Part shown: one piece after another, positions 4,132-41,929 of the stretch
How positions within the stretch are numbered: the first letter of the stretch is position 1
How the letters are laid out: each line of letters begins with the position of its first letter
Program-made: the position numbers and the translations under genes
Notes under the pieces: model-generated
Databases searched by the model: none
Seen by the model: the letters and a program-made list of their open reading frames with translations, nothing else
Told to the model about the DNA's origin: nothing
Assembly (NCBI GenBank): GCA_003223455.1
Contig: QHVE01000021.1
Coordinates: 1-43,353 of the forward strand
From: Gemmatimonadota bacterium
Lineage (GTDB): Bacteria; Gemmatimonadota; Gemmatimonadetes; Gemmatimonadales; Gemmatimonadaceae
Direction: 5' to 3'
Length of the DNA stretch: 43,353 nucleotides

Positions 4132-4310
4132 GTTGGAGAGTTGGATAGTTAGTGAGTGAGTCGGTGAACCAGTGAACGGAACGGCCCTGGTGACAACCGG
4201 CATGGAAGCCCTATTGAGGGATCTCCACGCTGGTTCGTGGCCAGGGCCGTTCAACTCACCAATCAACCGACCAGCTCACCAACTCACCAACCAACCAACT
4301 CACCAGCGAT
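4129..4310 (+). repeat. Snap-back element: TGAGTTGG-type flanks around a long hairpin core
   Basis: The stretch between the kinase stop codon and sucA is an imperfect inverted repeat. The left flank begins in the stop codon and consists of degenerate 8-base TGAGTTGG units. The right flank (about 4252-4310) consists of the complement (CCAACTCA-like units). The core has a perfect 12-bp arm pair, GAACGGCCCTGG at 4179-4190 and its complement at 4241-4252. An inner near-match pair (4195-4205 with 4225-4235, 9 of 11 bases) and a small CCCT/AGGG hairpin lie inside it. The whole 4179-4252 core can fold almost completely. A sister repeat of the same 8-base unit is at 21029-21070. It carries no gene. 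Confidence 0.75.
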
Positions 4311-4341
4311 CCACCGCCTGCCTTCCCACGGCGTCGACCGC

Positions 4342-7109: not shown

Positions 7110-9736
7110 CGAGAGCGATGCGGCTTCTGGCCGCGACCATTTTCGTCCTCGCCGCGCCGCGACTCCTCTCAGCCCAGGAGCGCGGCGCAGTCGCGTTGGG
7201 CGAGGCCGTGGCGGGGCTCGACGTGACGACTCGCGTGCTGTTGATCGGCGCCCATCCGGACGACGAGGACACGCAGCTCCTCACCTGGCTGGCGCGCGGA
7301 CGCCAGGTGGAGACGGCGTATCTCTCGCTGACGCGCGGCGACGGCGGCCAGAACCTGATCGGCAACGAGCTCGGACCGCTGCTCGGCATGATCCGCACGG
7401 AGGAGCTGCTCGCGGCGCGTCGGCTGGATGGCGGGCGACAGTTCTTCACGCGCGCCTACGACTTCGGGTTCTCGAAGACCGCCGAGGAGACGTACACGCA
7501 CTGGGTGAAGGACTCGATCCTGCGTGACGTCGTGACGGTGGTGCGCGCGTTCCGGCCGCAGATCATCGTGGCCGTGTTCAGCGGCACACCGCGCGACGGG
7601 CACGGGCATCATCAGGTGTCGGGGATCCTGGCGCGCGAGGCGTTCGACGCGGCGGCGGACACGATGCGCTTCCCACGCGCCGCCACGGTCGGACTCGGCG
7701 CGTGGGTGCCGGCGAAGTTCTACCGCGCGCAGCGGTTCAACCCGGCGGATGCGACGCTGACGATGAACGTCGGTGAGCTGAGCCCATTCCGCGGGATGAC
7801 GTACGCCGAGATCGCGTCGGTGAGTCGGTCGCAGCATCTGTCGCAGGGATTCGGCGCACTGCAGCGGCGCGGCACGTGGTTCGACTACGTGAAGCTGGAA
7901 GCGTCGCACGTGTCGCCGCCGATCGTGCGCGAGACGTCGATGTTCGAGACGCTCGCCACGGGATGGGGGCGCTTCGCCAGTGCACAGCTCCCTGCGGGCG
8001 CGCGCGCGGCGATCGACTCGCTCGACGGTGCGATCGCCGACGTCCGGCGCGCCGAGAACCTCGCCGCGCCGGCGCCGATGGTGGCGCCGCTGGCGCGCGT
8101 CGTCGGATTGCTGGAGCGCGCGCGATCGGGGCTGACCTGTCCGCGCAACGGGTTCGCCGGCGGATGCATGGGCGTGGAGGGCGATCTCGCGATATCGCTC
8201 GAGACCGCGCTGCGGCGGGCGCAGCAGGCGCTGCTCTCCGCGGCGGGCGTGCTGGTGGAGGCGACGGCGCCGCGCGAGCTCGTTGCCGTGCACGATACGA
8301 TTCCCGTGACCGTGTCGGTGTACAACCAGGGCCGCGGCGACGTGGTGCTCGACGGCGCGTCGGCGTGGATGCAGAACGTGTACGGAACGCCACCCGCCGG
8401 CACGCCGGTGACGATCGTACCGGATAGTTCGGCGCGTGTCACCCTGCCGCTCGTCTCGGAGTGGGCGAGCGCGCCGTGGTGGATGGAGAACGGCTTCCAG
8501 CCGGGCACCGACATGTTCCGCCCGCCGCCGGGCGGGATCATCAGTGCGAACGGCCCGATCGGCGAGGACCGCGTCGCCGAGACGCACGCGCGCGCCGCGC
8601 TTCGCATCGCCGGCGCATCGTTCGTCGTCGACGCGGGGCCGGTGGTGTACCGCTATGCCGACCCGGCACGGGGCGAGCTGCGACGGCCGGTGGCATCGGT
8701 GCCGGCGGTGAGCCTGCGGTTCGACGACCAGGTGGAGTACGCCCGCGTGGGCACTGCGCTCGACCGCGAGTACGCGCTGCGCGTCGCGTCGTCCGCGACC
8801 GCGGCGCGCGCGGTCACCGTCGAGCTCACGCTGCCGAAGGGGCTCGTGACCGATTCCACCGTCCGGCACGTCGCGCTCGATCCGTTCAGCAGCAAGACGG
8901 TGGTGTTCAGGGTGAAGGGTCAGCTGCCGAAGGGACGGCACTACGTGAATGCCACGGCGTCGAGCGGCGGCGAGAAGTTCATGACGGGGTGGCTGCCGAT
9001 CACGTACGAGCACATCCGGCCGCTGCGCTACTACCGGATGGCGACCGTGCAGATCGAAGCGGTGGAGGCGCAGCTCCCGCGCAATCCGCAGGTCGCGTAC
9101 GTGAAGGGGGTGAGTGACAACGTCGCGCCGATGCTCTACCAGCTCGGTATTCGCGTGACGATGCTGTCGCCCGAGCTGCTGGCGACGGCCGACCTCTCGC
9201 GCTACGGCGCCGTGGTGGTGGGGCCGCGTGCCTTCGCCGCCACCCCGCTCATCGCGGCGAGCGCGGCACGGTTGCAGGAGTACGCGCGTGCCGGGGGGAC
9301 CGTCGTCGTGCAGTACGGTCAGCAGGAGATGCAGACGCCGGGTTACCTGCCGTACCCCGTCACGCTTTCGCGCACGGCGGAGCGCGTCACCGACGAGAAC
9401 GCGCCGGTGAAGGTGCTGGAGCCGTCGTCGCGGCTGCTGGCGTATCCGAACCGGATCACGCCGGACGACTTCAAGGGATGGGTGCAGGAGCGGGCGACGT
9501 ACATGCCCACGACCGCCGATCCCCACTATCGTCGACTGCTCGAGATGCACGACCCAGGGGAGCCGCCGAACGAGAACGCCGTACTGGTGGCGCCGCTCGG
9601 CAAGGGCGCGTACGTCTACTGCACGCTCGCGCTGTTCCGCCAGCTGCCAGCCGGTGTCCCGGGCGGCGCGCGGATCTTCCTCAATCTGCTCGCCGCCACC
9701 GGAGAGTCGACGGCGAGCGCGCTGCCACGGCCATGA
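7106..9736 (+). CDS. Exported PIG-L/LmbE-family deacetylase with NEW3-like and C-terminal amidotransferase-like region
   Basis: An 876-residue secreted protein; residues 1-23 form a Sec signal peptide ending LLSAQ. The LmbE/PIG-L metal site is visible as HPDDE at 50-54, with RGDGGQNLIGNELG and the later HGHHQVSG supplying further zinc ligands. These zinc enzymes remove N-acetyl groups from amino sugars. Beta-rich segments in the middle (about 390-620; PVTVSVYNQGRGDVVL, VELTLPKGLVTD) resemble NPCBM-associated NEW3 modules. The C terminus (about 650-876; VVVGPRAFAATP, GTVVVQYGQQEM, GKGAYVYCTLALF) resembles a class I glutamine-amidotransferase-like fold without an evident catalytic Cys. The frame is open much further upstream, but that part is the shadow of sucA; the signal peptide and ATGA overlap fix the start at 7106. 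A sugar or glycoconjugate substrate is inferred from the family. Confidence 0.9.
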   Translation: MTRAMRLLAATIFVLAAPRLLSAQERGAVALGEAVAGLDVTTRVLLIGAHPDDEDTQLLTWLARGRQVETAYLSLTRGDGGQNLIGNELGPLLGMIRTEELLAARRLDGGRQFFTRAYDFGFSKTAEETYTHWVKDSILRDVVTVVRAFRPQIIVAVFSGTPRDGHGHHQVSGILAREAFDAAADTMRFPRAATVGLGAWVPAKFYRAQRFNPADATLTMNVGELSPFRGMTYAEIASVSRSQHLSQGFGALQRRGTWFDYVKLEASHVSPPIVRETSMFETLATGWGRFASAQLPAGARAAIDSLDGAIADVRRAENLAAPAPMVAPLARVVGLLERARSGLTCPRNGFAGGCMGVEGDLAISLETALRRAQQALLSAAGVLVEATAPRELVAVHDTIPVTVSVYNQGRGDVVLDGASAWMQNVYGTPPAGTPVTIVPDSSARVTLPLVSEWASAPWWMENGFQPGTDMFRPPPGGIISANGPIGEDRVAETHARAALRIAGASFVVDAGPVVYRYADPARGELRRPVASVPAVSLRFDDQVEYARVGTALDREYALRVASSATAARAVTVELTLPKGLVTDSTVRHVALDPFSSKTVVFRVKGQLPKGRHYVNATASSGGEKFMTGWLPITYEHIRPLRYYRMATVQIEAVEAQLPRNPQVAYVKGVSDNVAPMLYQLGIRVTMLSPELLATADLSRYGAVVVGPRAFAATPLIAASAARLQEYARAGGTVVVQYGQQEMQTPGYLPYPVTLSRTAERVTDENAPVKVLEPSSRLLAYPNRITPDDFKGWVQERATYMPTTADPHYRRLLEMHDPGEPPNENAVLVAPLGKGAYVYCTLALFRQLPAGVPGGARIFLNLLAATGESTASALPRP

Positions 9737-10410
9737 CGGCGTCCCTGCTCGCGTTCATCCCCGTCGCGCTGCTGCTCACGCTGCTGCCCGGTGCCGACAC
9801 GGCGCTGGTGACGCGCAACGCACTCACGCTCGGACTCGGCGGCGCGCGGTGGACGATCCTCGGGATCCTCACCGGTTGCCTCATGCACGCGACGGCGTCG
9901 GCGCTCGGACTGTCGGCGATCCTCGCGACGTCGGCGCGCGCGTACGAGACGGTAAAGCTCGTGGGCGCGGCGTACCTGGTGTGGATCGGCGTGCAGGCCA
10001 TTCGCCACGCCCAGGGAGGTGCAGATCCCTCGAGTGCGCTCGGGATGACTGAGGCTCGTCATCCCGAGCGAGCGCAGCGAGTCGAGGGATCTGCACCTGC
10101 ACCGACGGCGCCCGGCGGGCATCCCTTCATGCAGGGATTCCTGACCAACATCCTGAACCCGAAGGTCGCGCTGTTCTACCTCACCTTCCTTCCGCAGTTC
10201 ATTCCGGCAGGCGCGCCGGTGCTGCGCACGTCGCTCCTGCTGGCGATGATCCACAACGCGCTCGGCTTCGCCTGGCTGTCGCTCTACGCGCAGTTCGTCG
10301 ACCGCCTGCGCGTCGCGCTGACGCGTCCCGTGGTGAAAGCGTGGCTCGAGCGCGCGACTGGTGGCGTGCTCGTCGCGCTCGGCGCGCGTCTCGCGTGGGA
10401 CCGCCGATGA
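9733..10410 (+). CDS. LysE/RhtB-family amino-acid exporter carrying a repeat-derived loop
   Basis: A 225-residue inner-membrane protein of the LysE/RhtB type, which exports amino acids or small metabolites. Hallmarks are LLPGADTALVTRNAL in the first helix and FMQGFLTNILNPKVALFYLTFLPQF after the central loop, with about six membrane helices in all. The start overlaps the PIG-L stop (ATGA). Residues about 95-122, in the cytoplasmic loop between VWIGVQAIRHAQG and TAPGGHPFMQGF, are encoded by an inverted pair of a dispersed palindromic repeat (10017-10098). They look like an in-frame insertion that left the reading frame open. Family members usually have only a short linker here, so the protein may still function. 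Confidence 0.88.
   Translation: MTASLLAFIPVALLLTLLPGADTALVTRNALTLGLGGARWTILGILTGCLMHATASALGLSAILATSARAYETVKLVGAAYLVWIGVQAIRHAQGGADPSSALGMTEARHPERAQRVEGSAPAPTAPGGHPFMQGFLTNILNPKVALFYLTFLPQFIPAGAPVLRTSLLLAMIHNALGFAWLSLYAQFVDRLRVALTRPVVKAWLERATGGVLVALGARLAWDRR
10017..10098 (+). repeat. Dispersed palindromic repeat, inverted pair, inside a coding sequence
   Basis: The right arm (10059-10098) is the complement of AGGTGCAGATCCCTCGA followed by a CTCGCTGCGCTCGCTCGGGATGA tract. The left arm (10017-10048) is a shortened version with the same two ends facing the other way. The two arms can pair into a hairpin. Related copies are at 25352-25397 and 41784-41850. It is translated as about 28 residues of the exporter gene. 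Confidence 0.85.
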
Positions 10411-19721: not shown

Positions 19722-21031
19722 CGACCTCCCTCACGCCATGGGCGCGCGAGCGCCGCCGCCCGCGCGTCGTCATCGTGGGCGGTGGCTTCGGAGGACTGTA
19801 CGCGGCCCGCGCGCTCAAGCGTGACGACGTCGACGTCCTGCTGCTCGACCGGACCAATCACCATCTGTTCCAGCCGCTGCTGTATCAGGTGGCGACCGCG
19901 ACGCTCGCGCCGACGGACATCACCGCGCCGATCCGCTGGCTGCTGCGCAAGCAGTCCAACGCATCGGTCTTGATGGAGGAAGTCGCGCGGATCGATGCGG
20001 AGCGGCGGGTCGTCGCCACCGCCGAAGGGCACGAGTACGCGTACGACTACCTCATCGTCGCGGCGGGTGCGCGGCACGCGTACTTCAATCATCCGGAGTG
20101 GGAAGCCCTCGCGCCCGGGCTCAAGAGCATCGACGACGCGATCGAGCTGCGCCGGCGGATCCTCACGGCGTTCGAGCGCGCCGAGATGATCGACGATCCC
20201 GAGGAGCGCGCGGCGTGGCTCACCTTCATCATCGTCGGTGGCGGCCCGACCGGGACAGAGCTTGCGGGAATGCTGCCGACGATCGCCCGCCATGCGCTCG
20301 ATCACGACTTCCGGCGCATCGATCCGAAGAGTGCGCGGGTGATCCTCGTCGAGGGCGGGCCGAGGATCCTCGCCACGTACCCCGCCGAGCTGAGCGAGCA
20401 TGCGCGACGCGATCTCACCAACCTCGGCGTCGACGTGCGCACCGGAACGCTCGTCTCGGAGATCGGTCCGCACTACGTGGTTGCCGGTACGGAGCGCATC
20501 CACGCGCACACGATCCTCTGGGCGGCGGGAAACGCCGCGTCCCCGCTCGGCAGGGATCTGCACGCGAAACTGGATCGCGCGGGCCGCGTCGAGGTCGACC
20601 CCGACCTCAGCGTGCCCGGCCGACGCGAGGTGTTCGTCATCGGCGATCTCGCCGCGACGACGACGGACGGCAAGCCGGTGCCCGGCGTCGCGCCCGCCGC
20701 GATGCAGATGGGCGCGCTCGCCGCGAAGAACATCCGCCGCGATCTCGAGCAGCGCGAGCGCGTCCCGTTCCGATACCGGAACAAGGGAGACCTCGCGACG
20801 ATCGGCCGCTACCGCGCGATCGCGGATTTCGGCCGACTCCGCGTCACCGGCGGCCTCGCGTGGTGGTTCTGGCTCTTTCTCCACATCATGTACCTCGCCG
20901 GCTTCCGCAACCGCATCAGCGTGCTCGTCGAGTGGGCGTACAGCTACTTCACGTACGAGCGGGGGGCGAGGTTGATCACGGGACGGAAGATGGAGCCGGG
21001 GCGCGAGCAGCCGATTCCTGGGAAGTGGTGA
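19718..21031 (+). CDS. ndh: Type II NADH dehydrogenase (NDH-2)
   Basis: A 437-residue single-subunit flavoprotein that oxidises NADH and reduces the quinone pool at the membrane without pumping protons. The FAD-binding GGGFGG is at 21-26. A second dinucleotide motif, IIVGGGPTGTELAG, is near 172-185. The late FAD/quinone motif GDLAATTTDGKPVPGVAPAAMQMG is present. The C terminus has an amphipathic/aromatic membrane-anchor segment (GGLAWWFWLFLHIMYLAGF). The start is GTG 19718, overlapping the esterase stop as GTGA; the long upstream open frame is a shadow. The C-terminal stop codon begins a tandem TGAGTTGG repeat. Confidence 0.94.
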   Translation: MTTSLTPWARERRRPRVVIVGGGFGGLYAARALKRDDVDVLLLDRTNHHLFQPLLYQVATATLAPTDITAPIRWLLRKQSNASVLMEEVARIDAERRVVATAEGHEYAYDYLIVAAGARHAYFNHPEWEALAPGLKSIDDAIELRRRILTAFERAEMIDDPEERAAWLTFIIVGGGPTGTELAGMLPTIARHALDHDFRRIDPKSARVILVEGGPRILATYPAELSEHARRDLTNLGVDVRTGTLVSEIGPHYVVAGTERIHAHTILWAAGNAASPLGRDLHAKLDRAGRVEVDPDLSVPGRREVFVIGDLAATTTDGKPVPGVAPAAMQMGALAAKNIRRDLEQRERVPFRYRNKGDLATIGRYRAIADFGRLRVTGGLAWWFWLFLHIMYLAGFRNRISVLVEWAYSYFTYERGARLITGRKMEPGREQPIPGKW

Positions 21032-21070
21032 GTTCGTGAGTTGGTGAGTTGGTGAGTTGGTGAGTTGGTC
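21029..21070 (+). repeat. Tandem 8-base repeat (TGAGTTGG) directly after ndh
   Basis: About five copies of TGAGTTGG, the first with one mismatch, begin in the ndh stop codon and end in TCGG, followed by a short complement (AACTCACC, 21074-21081). This is the same unit as the flanks of the snap-back element at 4129-4310, where it also begins in a stop codon. The remaining gap to 21120 holds nothing else recognisable. Confidence 0.8.
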
Positions 21071-21120
21071 GGTAACTCACCCATTTGACGCCAAGCATCT
21101 CCCGGCCCCAACCTTCCCCC

Positions 21121-25351: not shown

Positions 25352-25397
25352 CTCTTCGACTGCGCTCGGGATGACAGCGGGAAGTGCAGATCCCTCG
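25352..25397 (+). repeat. Dispersed palindromic repeat, rearranged intergenic copy
   Basis: CTTCGACTGCGCTCGGGATGACA (broken here as CTTCGACTG and CGCTCGGGATGACA) is followed by GTGCAGATCCCTCG: the two ends of the repeat family in reversed order. GGGAT and ATCCC can pair. This fills most of the 25320-25440 gap, which otherwise has no gene. Confidence 0.65.
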
Positions 25398-25440
25398 TGC
25401 GGGGTCGCCGCACTCGGCGAGATGCGTTTTCAGAGTCGGA

Positions 25441-26309: not shown

Positions 26310-27191
26310 ATGAGACTCGCCCTCACGCCGCTGTTGGCCATCGCACTCAGCTCGAGTGCCGCGCTGCCCTCACGTGCGCAGACGCCCCGAGCGAACCCCC
26401 GGACCTCCGGATTCCCGAAATCCGGCTTCGTCCGCGTGAACGGACTCGACATGTATTACGAGCTCCACGGCGCCGGCGGCACGCCGCTCGTGCTCATCCA
26501 CGGCGGCGGCTCGACGATCGGCACGAACTTCAGCCGGGTCCTGCCGCTGCTGTCACGAAACCGGCGCGTGATCGCGGTCGAGGTACAGGCGCATGGCCAC
26601 ACGCGCGACATCGACCGGCCGTTCACCTTCGAGCAGGACGCGGACGACATCGCCGCGCTGCTCGATTCGCTGCACGTACCGCATGCGGACATCCTCGGGT
26701 TCAGCAACGGCGGCACGACGGCACTCCAGATCGCGATCCGTCACCCGGCCAAGGTGAACCGCCTCGTGATCGCCTCGTCGAACTACAAGCGCGACGGGAT
26801 GGCGGCGGGGTTCTGGGACTTCATGGAGAAGGGCACGTACGCCGACATGCCCAAGCCGTACGAGGATGCCTACCTGAAGATCAATCCGAGTCAGGCGGGT
26901 GTGCACGCGATGCAGGACCGCGACGCCAAGCGGATGCTCGGGTTCAAGGACATCCCCGATGCCTCGATCCGCGGCATCCAGGCGCCGACGCTGGTCGTCG
27001 TCGGCGACCGCGACGTGATCCGCCCCGAACATGCGCTCGAGCTCTCACGCACGCTGCCGCACGCGCGGCTGTGCATCCTCCCAGGTACCCACGGCAGCTA
27101 CCTCGGCGAGATCATGACGCCAAAGGTGAGCGATCGCACCGTGGCGATCTTCGCAGACCTCGTCCTCGATTTTCTAGACGGGCGAGAGTAG
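26310..27191 (+). CDS. Secreted alpha/beta hydrolase
   Basis: A 293-residue protein with a signal peptide (LTPLLAIALSSSAALPSRAQ) and an alpha/beta hydrolase fold. It has an oxyanion-region HGGG (LVLIHGGGSTIG), a nucleophile elbow GFSNGG (S132), an acid candidate in VVVGDRDVI and the catalytic His in PGTHGSY. Such enzymes cleave esters, lactones or similar bonds; the substrate is unknown. It begins 1 base after the SRPBCC stop with a strong GAGGAGGG ribosome site, so it is the third gene of the ArsR operon and may act on or release that unit's ligand. It converges with the MFS gene; the 75-base gap contains no clear terminator. Confidence 0.88.
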   Translation: MRLALTPLLAIALSSSAALPSRAQTPRANPRTSGFPKSGFVRVNGLDMYYELHGAGGTPLVLIHGGGSTIGTNFSRVLPLLSRNRRVIAVEVQAHGHTRDIDRPFTFEQDADDIAALLDSLHVPHADILGFSNGGTTALQIAIRHPAKVNRLVIASSNYKRDGMAAGFWDFMEKGTYADMPKPYEDAYLKINPSQAGVHAMQDRDAKRMLGFKDIPDASIRGIQAPTLVVVGDRDVIRPEHALELSRTLPHARLCILPGTHGSYLGEIMTPKVSDRTVAIFADLVLDFLDGRE

Positions 27192-27266
27192 TCGGGCTGG
27201 CTCCGTCGTTTCCGCGTTCCGTCGCTCTATCATTCAATCGTCGGAACGCCAATCGAATCCTGCGAG

Positions 27267-28568
27267 CTACGCCGCTGCCGGCTTCGCGTCGCTGCGGGTG
27301 TACGCCTCCATGCCAAGTCCGAGATAGACGGTGAACAACACCAACGTCGCCGAGACGAGGAAGGGGAGACCGCTGCCGCGGTCGTAGAGGAATCCGAAGA
27401 GAATCGGAAAGAGCACGCGGGCCATGCCCCCGAACGTCTGCTGCACACCCATGTAGAGCCCGCGCTCCTTGCTCGAGATCACGCGCGAGAGCAGCGACGT
27501 CACGCATGGGAAGGTGAACGCGGTGCCCAGCGGGAGGAAGGCGACCGCGATGGCGAGCGGGAGATAGGGAAGCAGGGCGACCGCGCGCGCGGGCAGCACG
27601 CCGCCCAGCATCGCGGCCACGGCGGCGGGATCCGCGAGTGGTCGGATGAACGACAGCAATGCAAGTCCGGTCGCCAGCAGAATCTGTCCGATGCGCGCCA
27701 GGCGCGGCTCGCCGAACCGGTCGATCATCGGCCCCAGGATCAGCGCGCGCGTCACCACGCTGAGGACGCCGGTATACGCGAAGAAGTAGCCGATCGTGTT
27801 CGCGGTCACACCGAATCGTGCCGACAGCAGGAGCGCGAGCATCGACATGACGCCCTGGAACGCTCCGAGCCCGATGGCGTAGATCCAGATGAGTCGCGAT
27901 GCCGGCGCGGCAGGATGACTGACGACGCGCCCGATCGCGTCGCGTGAGCGCCCGCGCTTCGTCGTGTCCGCCTTCGACTCCGCCGCCTCCTTCATGTCGC
28001 GCGACTCGTTGAGGTAGCGCCACGCGAACGCGATGTTGAGCACGCAGAGCACGGCGGCGAACAGGCCCGGACCACGCTCGCCCCAGCGGAGCGTCAGCGG
28101 TCCGATGAGCGGCCCGATCGCGACGCCCGCGTTCGTCGCCGCGGAGAGCCAGCCGAGCGCCTTGGCACGCTCCTCGGGTGCGGTCGCGTCGGCGACGTAC
28201 GCCTGGATCACGCTCACCGTCCCGCCTCCTGCGCCCTGCACGATGCGCGAGAGGAAGAGGAAGAACAGCGGATGCGGCAGCGAGAGCGCGAAGGCGAAGA
28301 CGATGTATGCGATGACCGACGCGCTCAGCCCGACGAGCAGCGCCGGCCGCCGGCCGTACGCGTCGGAGAACCGCCCCCACATCGGCGCGCTGATGAGCTG
28401 CGCCACCGCGAACGAGCTGATGAGCGTTCCGACGACGAGCCCACCCGCGCCGAGCGACTTCGCGTAGAAGGGCAGCAGCGGGATGACCATCAACAGCCCC
28501 ACCATGTCGATGAAGGCCGTGATCATCAGGATCCAGAGCTTGCTGCGACTGCTCGTCGACAACGCCAT
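27267..28568 (-). CDS. Major facilitator superfamily transporter (TetA/multidrug-like)
   Basis: A 433-residue inner-membrane protein of about 12 helices. Motif A appears as WGRFSDAYGRRPAL between helices 2 and 3, and the family-like IVQGAGGGTVSVIQAYVAD and GLYMGVQQTFGGMARVL are present. A charged central loop (ESKADTTKRGRSRD) separates the halves. Members of this group export drugs such as tetracycline or take up or release metabolites by proton antiport. It starts 16 bases after the nucleoside-importer permease on the same strand, so it is probably the last gene of that operon. Confidence 0.9.
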   Translation of the reverse strand: MALSTSSRSKLWILMITAFIDMVGLLMVIPLLPFYAKSLGAGGLVVGTLISSFAVAQLISAPMWGRFSDAYGRRPALLVGLSASVIAYIVFAFALSLPHPLFFLFLSRIVQGAGGGTVSVIQAYVADATAPEERAKALGWLSAATNAGVAIGPLIGPLTLRWGERGPGLFAAVLCVLNIAFAWRYLNESRDMKEAAESKADTTKRGRSRDAIGRVVSHPAAPASRLIWIYAIGLGAFQGVMSMLALLLSARFGVTANTIGYFFAYTGVLSVVTRALILGPMIDRFGEPRLARIGQILLATGLALLSFIRPLADPAAVAAMLGGVLPARAVALLPYLPLAIAVAFLPLGTAFTFPCVTSLLSRVISSKERGLYMGVQQTFGGMARVLFPILFGFLYDRGSGLPFLVSATLVLFTVYLGLGMEAYTRSDAKPAAA

Positions 28569-39778: not shown

Positions 39779-41309
39779 CGGCACGAAATCGCTTCCTGGG
39801 CGCGACCGTCGCGACGCTGGCCGCGCTCGCGCTGCTTCCCGCCGCGGTACGCCCGCAGGGCTCGCGGACCTCGCGGCCGAACATCCTGTTCATCATGACC
39901 GACGACCACGCCGCACACGCCATCGGCGCGTATGGATCGCGGGTGAACAAGACGCCCAATCTCGACCGACTCGCACGCGAGGGAGCGCGGCTGACGAGCG
40001 TCTTCGCCACGAACTCGATCTGCACCCCGAGCCGCGCGGCCATTCTCACCGGTCAGTACTCGCACCTGAACGGCGTGACGATGTTCAACCGCTTCGACGG
40101 CTCGCGCATGACCGTCGCGCGGCTGCTGCAGCGCGGCGGCTATTACACCGGCATGATCGGGAAATGGCACCTCGGCAGCGACCCGGTCGGGTTCGACCGC
40201 TGGGAGATCCTGCCCGGTCAGGGCGTGTACTTCGATCCCGTGATGTACACGGCGACCTCCGAGACGACGTACGTCGGCAAGTACGCCACGGATGTCATCA
40301 CCGAGCGCGCGATCGACTTCCTGGACAAGCGTCCGCGCGACAAGCCGTTCTTCCTGATGATGCATCACAAGGCGCCGCATCGGCCGTGGGACCCGGACTC
40401 CGTTCACGCCGCGCATTTCGCCTCGATGCGCATCCCCGAGCCGACGACCTTCTGGGACGGCTACGAGACGCGCACCGATGCGCTGCACGAGAACCAGCAG
40501 CGCGTGGCGAAGGATCTCACCAACCGCGACCTCAAGCGAACGCCTCCCACAGGACTCGACGCGGCGGCGCTCGGGCGCTGGCAGCAGACGAAGCCGGACA
40601 CACGGGCGAAGCGCTCACGCGCTGGAAGTACCAGCGGTACATGCAGGACTACCTCGCCACCGTACAGTCGGTGGACGAGAGCGTGGGAAAAGTGCTCGAC
40701 TACCTCGACCGCAACCGACTCGCCCGCAACACGCTCGTGATCTACACGAGCGACCAGGGGTTCTTCCTCGGCGATCACGGCCTGTTCGACAAGCGGTTCA
40801 TGTACGAGGAATCGATCCGCATGCCCTTCCTCGTGCGCTGGCCGGCGGAGATAACGGCGGGGACCGTGAGCGACGCGATGGGCCTCAACGTGGACTTCGC
40901 ACCGACCTTCCTCGACGTCGCCGGGCTGCCGCCGTCGGCGGAGATGCAGGGGCGCAGCCTGCGCGCCGTGCTGCGCGGACGTACGCCGGCGGACTGGCGG
41001 ACGAGCATGTACTACCGCTACTACCACGACCCCGGCGATCACAACACACGCGCGCACTACGGCGTACGCACGCGCACGCACAAGCTGATCTATTACTGGA
41101 AGAAGGATCAGTGGGAGCTGTTCGATCTCGTGAACGACCCCTACGAGCTGCACAACCTGTACGGCCAGCCGGGAACGGAGCAGCTCACCGCCTCGCTCAA
41201 GGCGGAGCTCGCGCGGCTCAAGCGCGAGGTGCGTGACGAGGATCAGCTGGCCGACGTGCAGATCCCGAACGGTGTGGACGGTCCGGTGGCGCGACTGCGC
41301 GGGAAGTGA
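39775..41309 (+). pseudogene. Sulfatase (arylsulfatase/DUF-type), split by a frameshift
   Basis: A sulfatase of about 510 residues if the frame is repaired. The first part has a signal peptide, PNILFIMTDDHAAHAIG (metal ligands), the formylglycine motif C83-T-P-S-R87 in NSICTPSRAAILTGQ and MIGKWHLG. Near 40598-40606, within CCGGACACACGGGC, the coding frame moves. The first frame degenerates into Arg/Ser/Thr residues and stops at 40738-40740. The family sequence resumes in the other frame as GEALTRWKYQRYMQDYLATV and continues through TSDQGFFLGDHGLFDKRF to 41309. A net gain of two bases (an extra AC) or loss of one explains it. The late metal ligands (SDQG) are lost in the truncated product, so that form would be inactive. 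The cause could also be a sequencing or assembly error. Confidence 0.85.
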
Positions 41310-41929
41310 GCATCGCCGCGATCTGGCGACGCCTCGACGTGCCGGGGCACGATGCCTGTCGGCTCGACGAGGTGAAGGATGGCTGGCGGCTTCACGGCAC
41401 GGCCGTATTCCGTCTCGACGACTTACCGACACGTCTGGACTACCACGTGGAGTGCAGCCGGGACTGGCTCGCACGCGGCGCGCGCGTCGAGGGATGGGCC
41501 GGCGCGGCATCGATCGGGATCACCATCGCTCATGCCGCCGACGGTCGGTGGCTGCTCGATGGCGTGCCCGTGCCCGGGCTCGAGGACTGTGTCGACGTCG
41601 ATTTCGGCTTCACGCCAGCGACGAACCTGTTGCAACTGCGGCGCGTCGATCTTGGCGTCGGCGAAGCGGCGAACGTGCCGGTCGCGTGGCTCGACGTGCC
41701 GGCGAACACGCTCGAGCGTCTCGAGCAGCGCTATCATCGGCTGACCGACTCGGCGTACGACTACGAGTCGCGATGGCTCTCGGAGGTGCAGATCCCTCGA
41801 CTCGCTGCGCTCGCTCGGGATGACAGAGGCGCGGCTGCGCTCGCTCGGGAGGACTATCACGCCGTGCTGGAGACGGCGTCGGACGGATTCGTGCGGCGCT
41901 ATCCGGGGCTCTGGGAGCTCGAAGGCTGA
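41306..41929 (+). CDS. Putative glycolipid-binding family protein with repeat-encoded insert
   Basis: A 207-residue soluble protein resembling the 'putative glycolipid-binding' family (PF06475 type): [73 protein letters not shown] and the end [13 protein letters not shown]. Family proteins run straight from the YxYES segment to the last strands. Here residues about 160-182 ([16 protein letters not shown]...) are encoded by a dispersed palindromic repeat (41784-41850), an apparent in-frame insertion. The start is GTG overlapping the sulfatase stop. The real function of the family is not established. Confidence 0.82.
41784..41850 (+). repeat. Dispersed palindromic repeat, full copy plus partial tandem copy, inside a gene
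   Basis: AGGTGCAGATCCCTCGA begins at 41784 and the unit ends GGGATGACA at 41825. Its last part, CTGCGCTCGCTCGGGA, occurs at 41805-41820 and again at 41835-41850. It is the same family as 10017-10098 and 25352-25397. It is translated as part of the glycolipid-binding-family protein. Confidence 0.85.

Follow-up and report, generated by a model that had tools for sequence, protein, structure and literature searches.

The stretch of DNA analysed here (the window) comprises positions 1 to 43,353 of contig QHVE01000021.1 from a Gemmatimonadota bacterium, and contains, at 41306..41929 on the + strand, a gene with a GTG start coding for a 207-aa protein of the Glycolipid_bind family (DUF1089, PF06475). 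The family assignment made in the preliminary description is borne out by the PF06475 profile, which matches the protein with an E-value of 2.7e-42 and 144.8 bits (gathering cut-off 25). The gene carries a 72-nt insertion at 41783..41854 (+), corresponding to 24 codons (E160-D183), which was delimited by alignment with 94 relatives; its exact ends may shift by a few bases, and 41783-41854 is the best placement against the relatives. It is composed of a full repeat unit of 42 nt (41783..41824, +), in which the 34-nt core spans 41791-41824 and the - strand carries the GTC-tagged hairpin, and of an adjoining tandem array unit of 30 nt (41825..41854, +), a partial copy which consists of AGAGGCGCG followed by a terminal GCTGCGCTCGCTCGGGAGGAC and is devoid of the GATCCC arm. 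The core is read in the host gene as GTG-CAG-ATC-CCT-CGA, and translation that skips 41783-41854 yields ESRWLSYHAVLE, in which the Y and A common in the family turn are retained.

Relatives of the host protein were collected from 119 related genomes and from public genomes; a contig scan with a single protein query gave no matches, and an alignment-based query recovered them. The best relatives are about 52-58% identical to the host protein. The spacing from S155 to L188 is exactly 8 residues in 90 of the 94 aligned relatives and 6, 7, 9 or 10 residues in the remaining ones, as compared with 32 in the window protein. Conservation of the insert in family members without the repeat had been named beforehand as an observation that would count against a repeat-derived insert, and the 24-residue insert was found in 0/94 of these relatives. 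Full repeat and partial tandem copy are indeed read in frame within this gene, as had been proposed, and the initial placement at 41784-41850 with roughly 25 residues was close to the 41783-41854 and 24 residues (160-183) given here. Positions conserved in at least 80% of the relatives are retained in the host protein on both sides of the insert (48/53 before it and 8/9 after it), indicating that the downstream frame is still constrained. Among the relatives gathered, no ortholog is close enough to provide an empty site at the DNA level, and the insertion event is therefore inferred from proteins. Judged by alignment and modelling, the 72-nt repeat appears to have been inserted in frame into a surface beta-hairpin that tolerates it.

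The closest structural counterpart of the host protein is 2H1T (PA1994), another Glycolipid_bind (DUF1089) protein, which is its PDB homologue both by sequence and by fold and its best Foldseek match (E 1.6e-11, TM 0.76 by target length). The two share a common fold over the whole domain, but 2H1T has no counterpart of the 24-residue loop that separates two late strands in the host protein. A single-sequence AlphaFold model reached a pLDDT of 39.5 and was replaced by an AlphaFold2 model with a 46-sequence alignment, with a mean pLDDT of 89.7, while natural relatives and 2H1T served as the loop-less control. The structure prediction suggested in the preliminary description gives a flexible loop at residues 160-180 and intact flanking strands (150-157 and 184-190), in agreement with the original placement of the insert just ahead of the C-terminal strands. 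Since pLDDT drops below 50 solely at 160-180, between these two strands, the insert is predicted to be a disordered extension of the beta-hairpin.

A second intragenic site lies in a LysE-family gene (9733-10407), and is occupied by a dimer of a left element of the 26-nt type (10024..10049, +) and a right element of the 34-nt type (10058..10091, -) which pairs with it; the two elements together form a long hairpin (-39 kcal/mol, z about -9). The repeat at 41784-41824 matches 10058-10098 as its reverse complement over all 41 nt (100%), which confirms the earlier statement that it is read in the opposite orientation to the right arm of the copy at 10059-10098. The left arm of the LysE dimer is read as GCA-GAT-CCC-TCG and the right arm in antisense (11 residues), so that the codon readings in both genes also support the view that a different gene and a different frame are involved. 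Comparison of the LysE loop between genomes (window 10014-10100; loci L238 and L239) revealed that the tags lie inside in the own-genome dimer and outside in the differently arranged dimer of a relative, G022. The ortholog in the same-genus genome G007 contains a degenerate repeat-like sequence and a frameshift, and the loop is short in other LysE relatives. The LysE loop looks like a recurrent or ancient insertion site. A degenerate further copy is located at 25364..25407 (+; GCTCGGGATGAC ... GTGCAGATCCCTCG). Inverted copies of a different repeat family (CAACTCACCAACTCACC type) are found in the window at 4258-4328 and 21019-21073, with a further occurrence near the repeat in locus L003. An Rfam search found no family in the window.

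In its own genome the repeat has 22 core copies, while a reversed control pattern had zero matches, and the repeat is thus not a product of chance. The core is present in 19 of the 60 genomes examined, including its own; two relatives hold 109 and 102 core copies, and most same-genus and same-family relatives have zero. Such a patchy distribution among relatives is typical of dispersing repeats. Copies lying 20 codons or more within a coding-like frame amounted to 3/22, 10/50 and 6/31 in three copy sets, as opposed to 205/252, 295/356 and 181/222 random positions in the same loci (about 82%), with the intragenic counts resting on a crude GC3-based gene call. In view of this strong depletion of copies from genes, the intragenic copies look like survivors. 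Repeat copies are also read inside an exonuclease-domain ORF in G022 (L115:1144-2238) and an M48-peptidase ORF in G007 (L127:168-2900), and a repeat cluster is read through in a LigD-like protein (L014:561-3026, -), within the linker that joins its DNA ligase C-terminal domain to the primase-polymerase domain.

The array part of the insert has parallels in G007, where 17 of the 35 sampled copies of the 34-nt type are followed by one to three array units, 16/28 of them exactly 30 nt long. Neighboring units are 87% identical, versus 68% between arrays, which fits local tandem duplication. The window insert is a two-unit array of the design common in G007. A simple 30-nt tandem duplication within the host gene was rejected as the source of the partial copy, because the preceding 9 nt (AGAGGCGCG) differ from the flanking TATCACGCC and resemble the array units of another genome.

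When single elements were folded as DNA with standard nearest-neighbour energies, no stable hairpin resulted. The GTC-tagged strand can be drawn as a stem that starts with ATCCC/GGGAT, continues with tandem G.A pairs and G-C pairs, and ends in a GNA loop; this stem has 5 Watson-Crick pairs (ATCCC/GGGAT), and reaches 9 pairs only if two G.A pairs are counted. The 34-nt form has one extra GAGC/GCGA module, and both own-genome forms require a bulged T. The paired fraction over 50 unique cores is 0.757, compared to 0.647 in a control which shuffled only the free positions, i.e. those not fixed by the search pattern (sd 0.014, maximum 0.701 of 1000), and the opposite strand has no such G.A-type pairing. 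GNA loops and sheared G.A pairs are generally known to be stable. Taken together, the pairing pattern points to a putative GNA-closed hairpin with G.A pairs on the GTC strand. We tentatively entertain a broader proposal, which we regard as possible but rather doubtful: that a strand-specific hairpin of stackable modules (tandem G.A and G-C pairs capped by a GNA triloop, with whole GAGC/GCGA modules adding length) may be the functional form of a CGTC-like REP family that spreads without a tyrosine transposase and repeatedly enters the same tolerant protein loops, as with the LysE loop, which holds dimers of opposite type in two genera. A G.A-based hairpin would offer a testable handle on the recognition of transposase-less CGTC-type repeats.

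The preliminary description had suggested that openness in several frames could be a selected property of the element, and had proposed a six-frame stop-codon count in comparison with shuffled sequences. Its remark on the absence of stop codons is correct for the frame in which the host gene reads the repeat, but not for one of the six frames, in which the 34-nt consensus has its only stop, the TGA of GGGATGAC; five of six frames are open. This single stop compares with 1.38 in mononucleotide and 0.74 in dinucleotide shuffles (P(<=obs) 0.58 and 0.89), and the 72-nt insert (73 nt tested) contains 1 stop versus 2.54 and 1.72 (P(<=obs) 0.25 and 0.44). Over the 26-nt form, the 45-nt extended form, the insert and the LysE dimer, shuffling likewise revealed no stop deficit (P(<=obs) 0.25 to 1.0). 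Pooled cores, with about 1.2 stops, lack a clear deficit, being slightly below mononucleotide shuffles (1.2-1.5) and above dinucleotide ones (0.6-0.7). Flank-extended copies have fewer stops than both types of shuffles in the own genome (1.18 versus 2.02 and 1.57) and in G007 (1.35 versus 2.41 and 1.86), and not fewer in G022 (2.16 versus 2.06 and 1.46); the consensus test is the fair one, because copies within one genome are near-identical and not independent. Stop frequency is not below the expectation from composition, which is the outcome that the preliminary description had named as refuting its suggestion, and the openness of the element is what the base composition of GC-rich DNA yields, with no selection needed. 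An element selected to stay open in several frames, and spreading inside genes as a “selfish exon”, would agree with the five open frames and with the use of several frames and both orientations in coding-like ORFs, but we consider it very improbable: shuffles reveal no shortage of stops in the core, which retains a fixed TGA, and copies are depleted from genes about 4-6 fold.

We find it highly probable that a copy of a dispersed REP-like repeat of the CGTC type entered the gene at a surface beta-hairpin, where it persists as a surviving, near-neutral 24-residue loop. The palindromic copy may have arrived through mobility or recombination, and array units may have arisen by slippage or tandem duplication; the insert comprises a repeat copy and an additional 30-nt array unit like those adjoining many G007 copies. 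With its length of 72 nt and a reading frame that avoids the sole stop, it leaves the downstream frame and, in the model, the C-terminal strands intact, and the protein would gain a flexible loop of 24 residues, as predicted, which is presumably functionally neutral. Gene-breaking copies would be purged by selection, and the host-gene copy could survive as near-neutral. If the added loop had instead been co-opted for a role in binding, regulation or stability of the protein, one would expect the reading frame and downstream conserved residues to be kept, as they are, and the sequence is still open though its last unit has diverged (GATGAC to GAGGAC). The loop is, however, predicted to be disordered, and near-identical copies exist elsewhere in the genome, mostly outside genes, suggesting that the insert is recent and not adapted; we consider co-option very improbable. 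It is barely conceivable that the insert interrupts a dead gene through an assembly or frame artefact: the draft genome is split into 127 contigs, but the insert is an exact multiple of three with conserved residues kept downstream, and arrays built in the same way are numerous in G007, an independent genome.

Insertion of a dispersed repeat copy would be compatible with mobilization by a transposase of the RAYT type (IS200/IS605-like), the mode known from GTAG REPs and REPINs, and Y1_Tnp genes do occur, one in the own genome and two in G007, while the copies are paired in opposite orientation. Such mobilization nevertheless seems unlikely, as no core copy lies within about 1.5 kb of any Y1_Tnp gene found, and G022 (99% complete) yielded no Y1_Tnp match despite its 102 copies; a RAYT partnership is not supported. 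The sole Y1_Tnp (RAYT-like) gene of the own genome (L033; G000:C32, ~27136-27471) appears to be flanked by another repeat, which translates as GSDSLKT / FKESDP and is unrelated to the window element. REPINs and GTAG REPs with their RAYTs (PMC3116915) share with the window element short palindromes, opposite-orientation pairs and within-genome spread, but are characterized by a GTAG tag and an adjacent RAYT, whereas the window element has a GTC tag and no RAYT beside its copies.

Comparison with known repeats shows that the element resembles REPs of the CGTC type, as opposed to GTAG REPs/REPINs, by described features rather than by family sequences. In the account of Di Nocera et al. (2013; PMC3733652), CGTC-tagged REPs are dispersed short palindromes that carry CGTC (often TGTC or CCTC) at one end and have an 8-9 bp stem starting with AT and a short unpaired tail, in most cases CCA. 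They are mostly intergenic, often form opposite-orientation dimers and have no dedicated flanking transposase; intragenic copies, mostly dimers or groups, encode 20-30 aa. The window element shares the GTC tag with the following AT, the opposite-orientation pairs, the mostly intergenic location, the lack of a flanking tyrosine transposase, and intragenic copies of comparable coding length, here 24 residues. The base preceding GTC in the 22 own copies is T in 11, C in 8, G in 2 and A in 1, giving TGTC or CGTC in 19/22. The CCA tail is not matched, the tail being CTGCAC(C/T)TCC in most copies, although CCA is given in that account as the tail in most cases and is not strictly defining. Unlike CGTC REPs, the window element needs tandem G.A pairs in its stem, and has a 34-nt form with the GAGC/GCGA module and local arrays of ~30-nt units.

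The same paper (PMC3733652) assigns the Rickettsia elements RPE-4 and RPE-6 to the CGTC REPs, and describes RPE-1 as longer. The Rickettsia palindromic elements are likened to the present repeat by behavior only: in both cases a palindromic repeat is found in frame in unrelated proteins, but the host here is GC-rich, with a composition that is not Rickettsia-like. As the missing stops are just what GC-rich DNA gives, the case adds a new instance to a known phenomenon, the “decoration” of proteins by palindromic repeats. It shows that a GC-rich element can be frame-open without selection, adds a further bacterial group to those with decorated proteins, and provides a clean control for decoration in the uninterrupted 8-residue turn common to 90/94 relatives.
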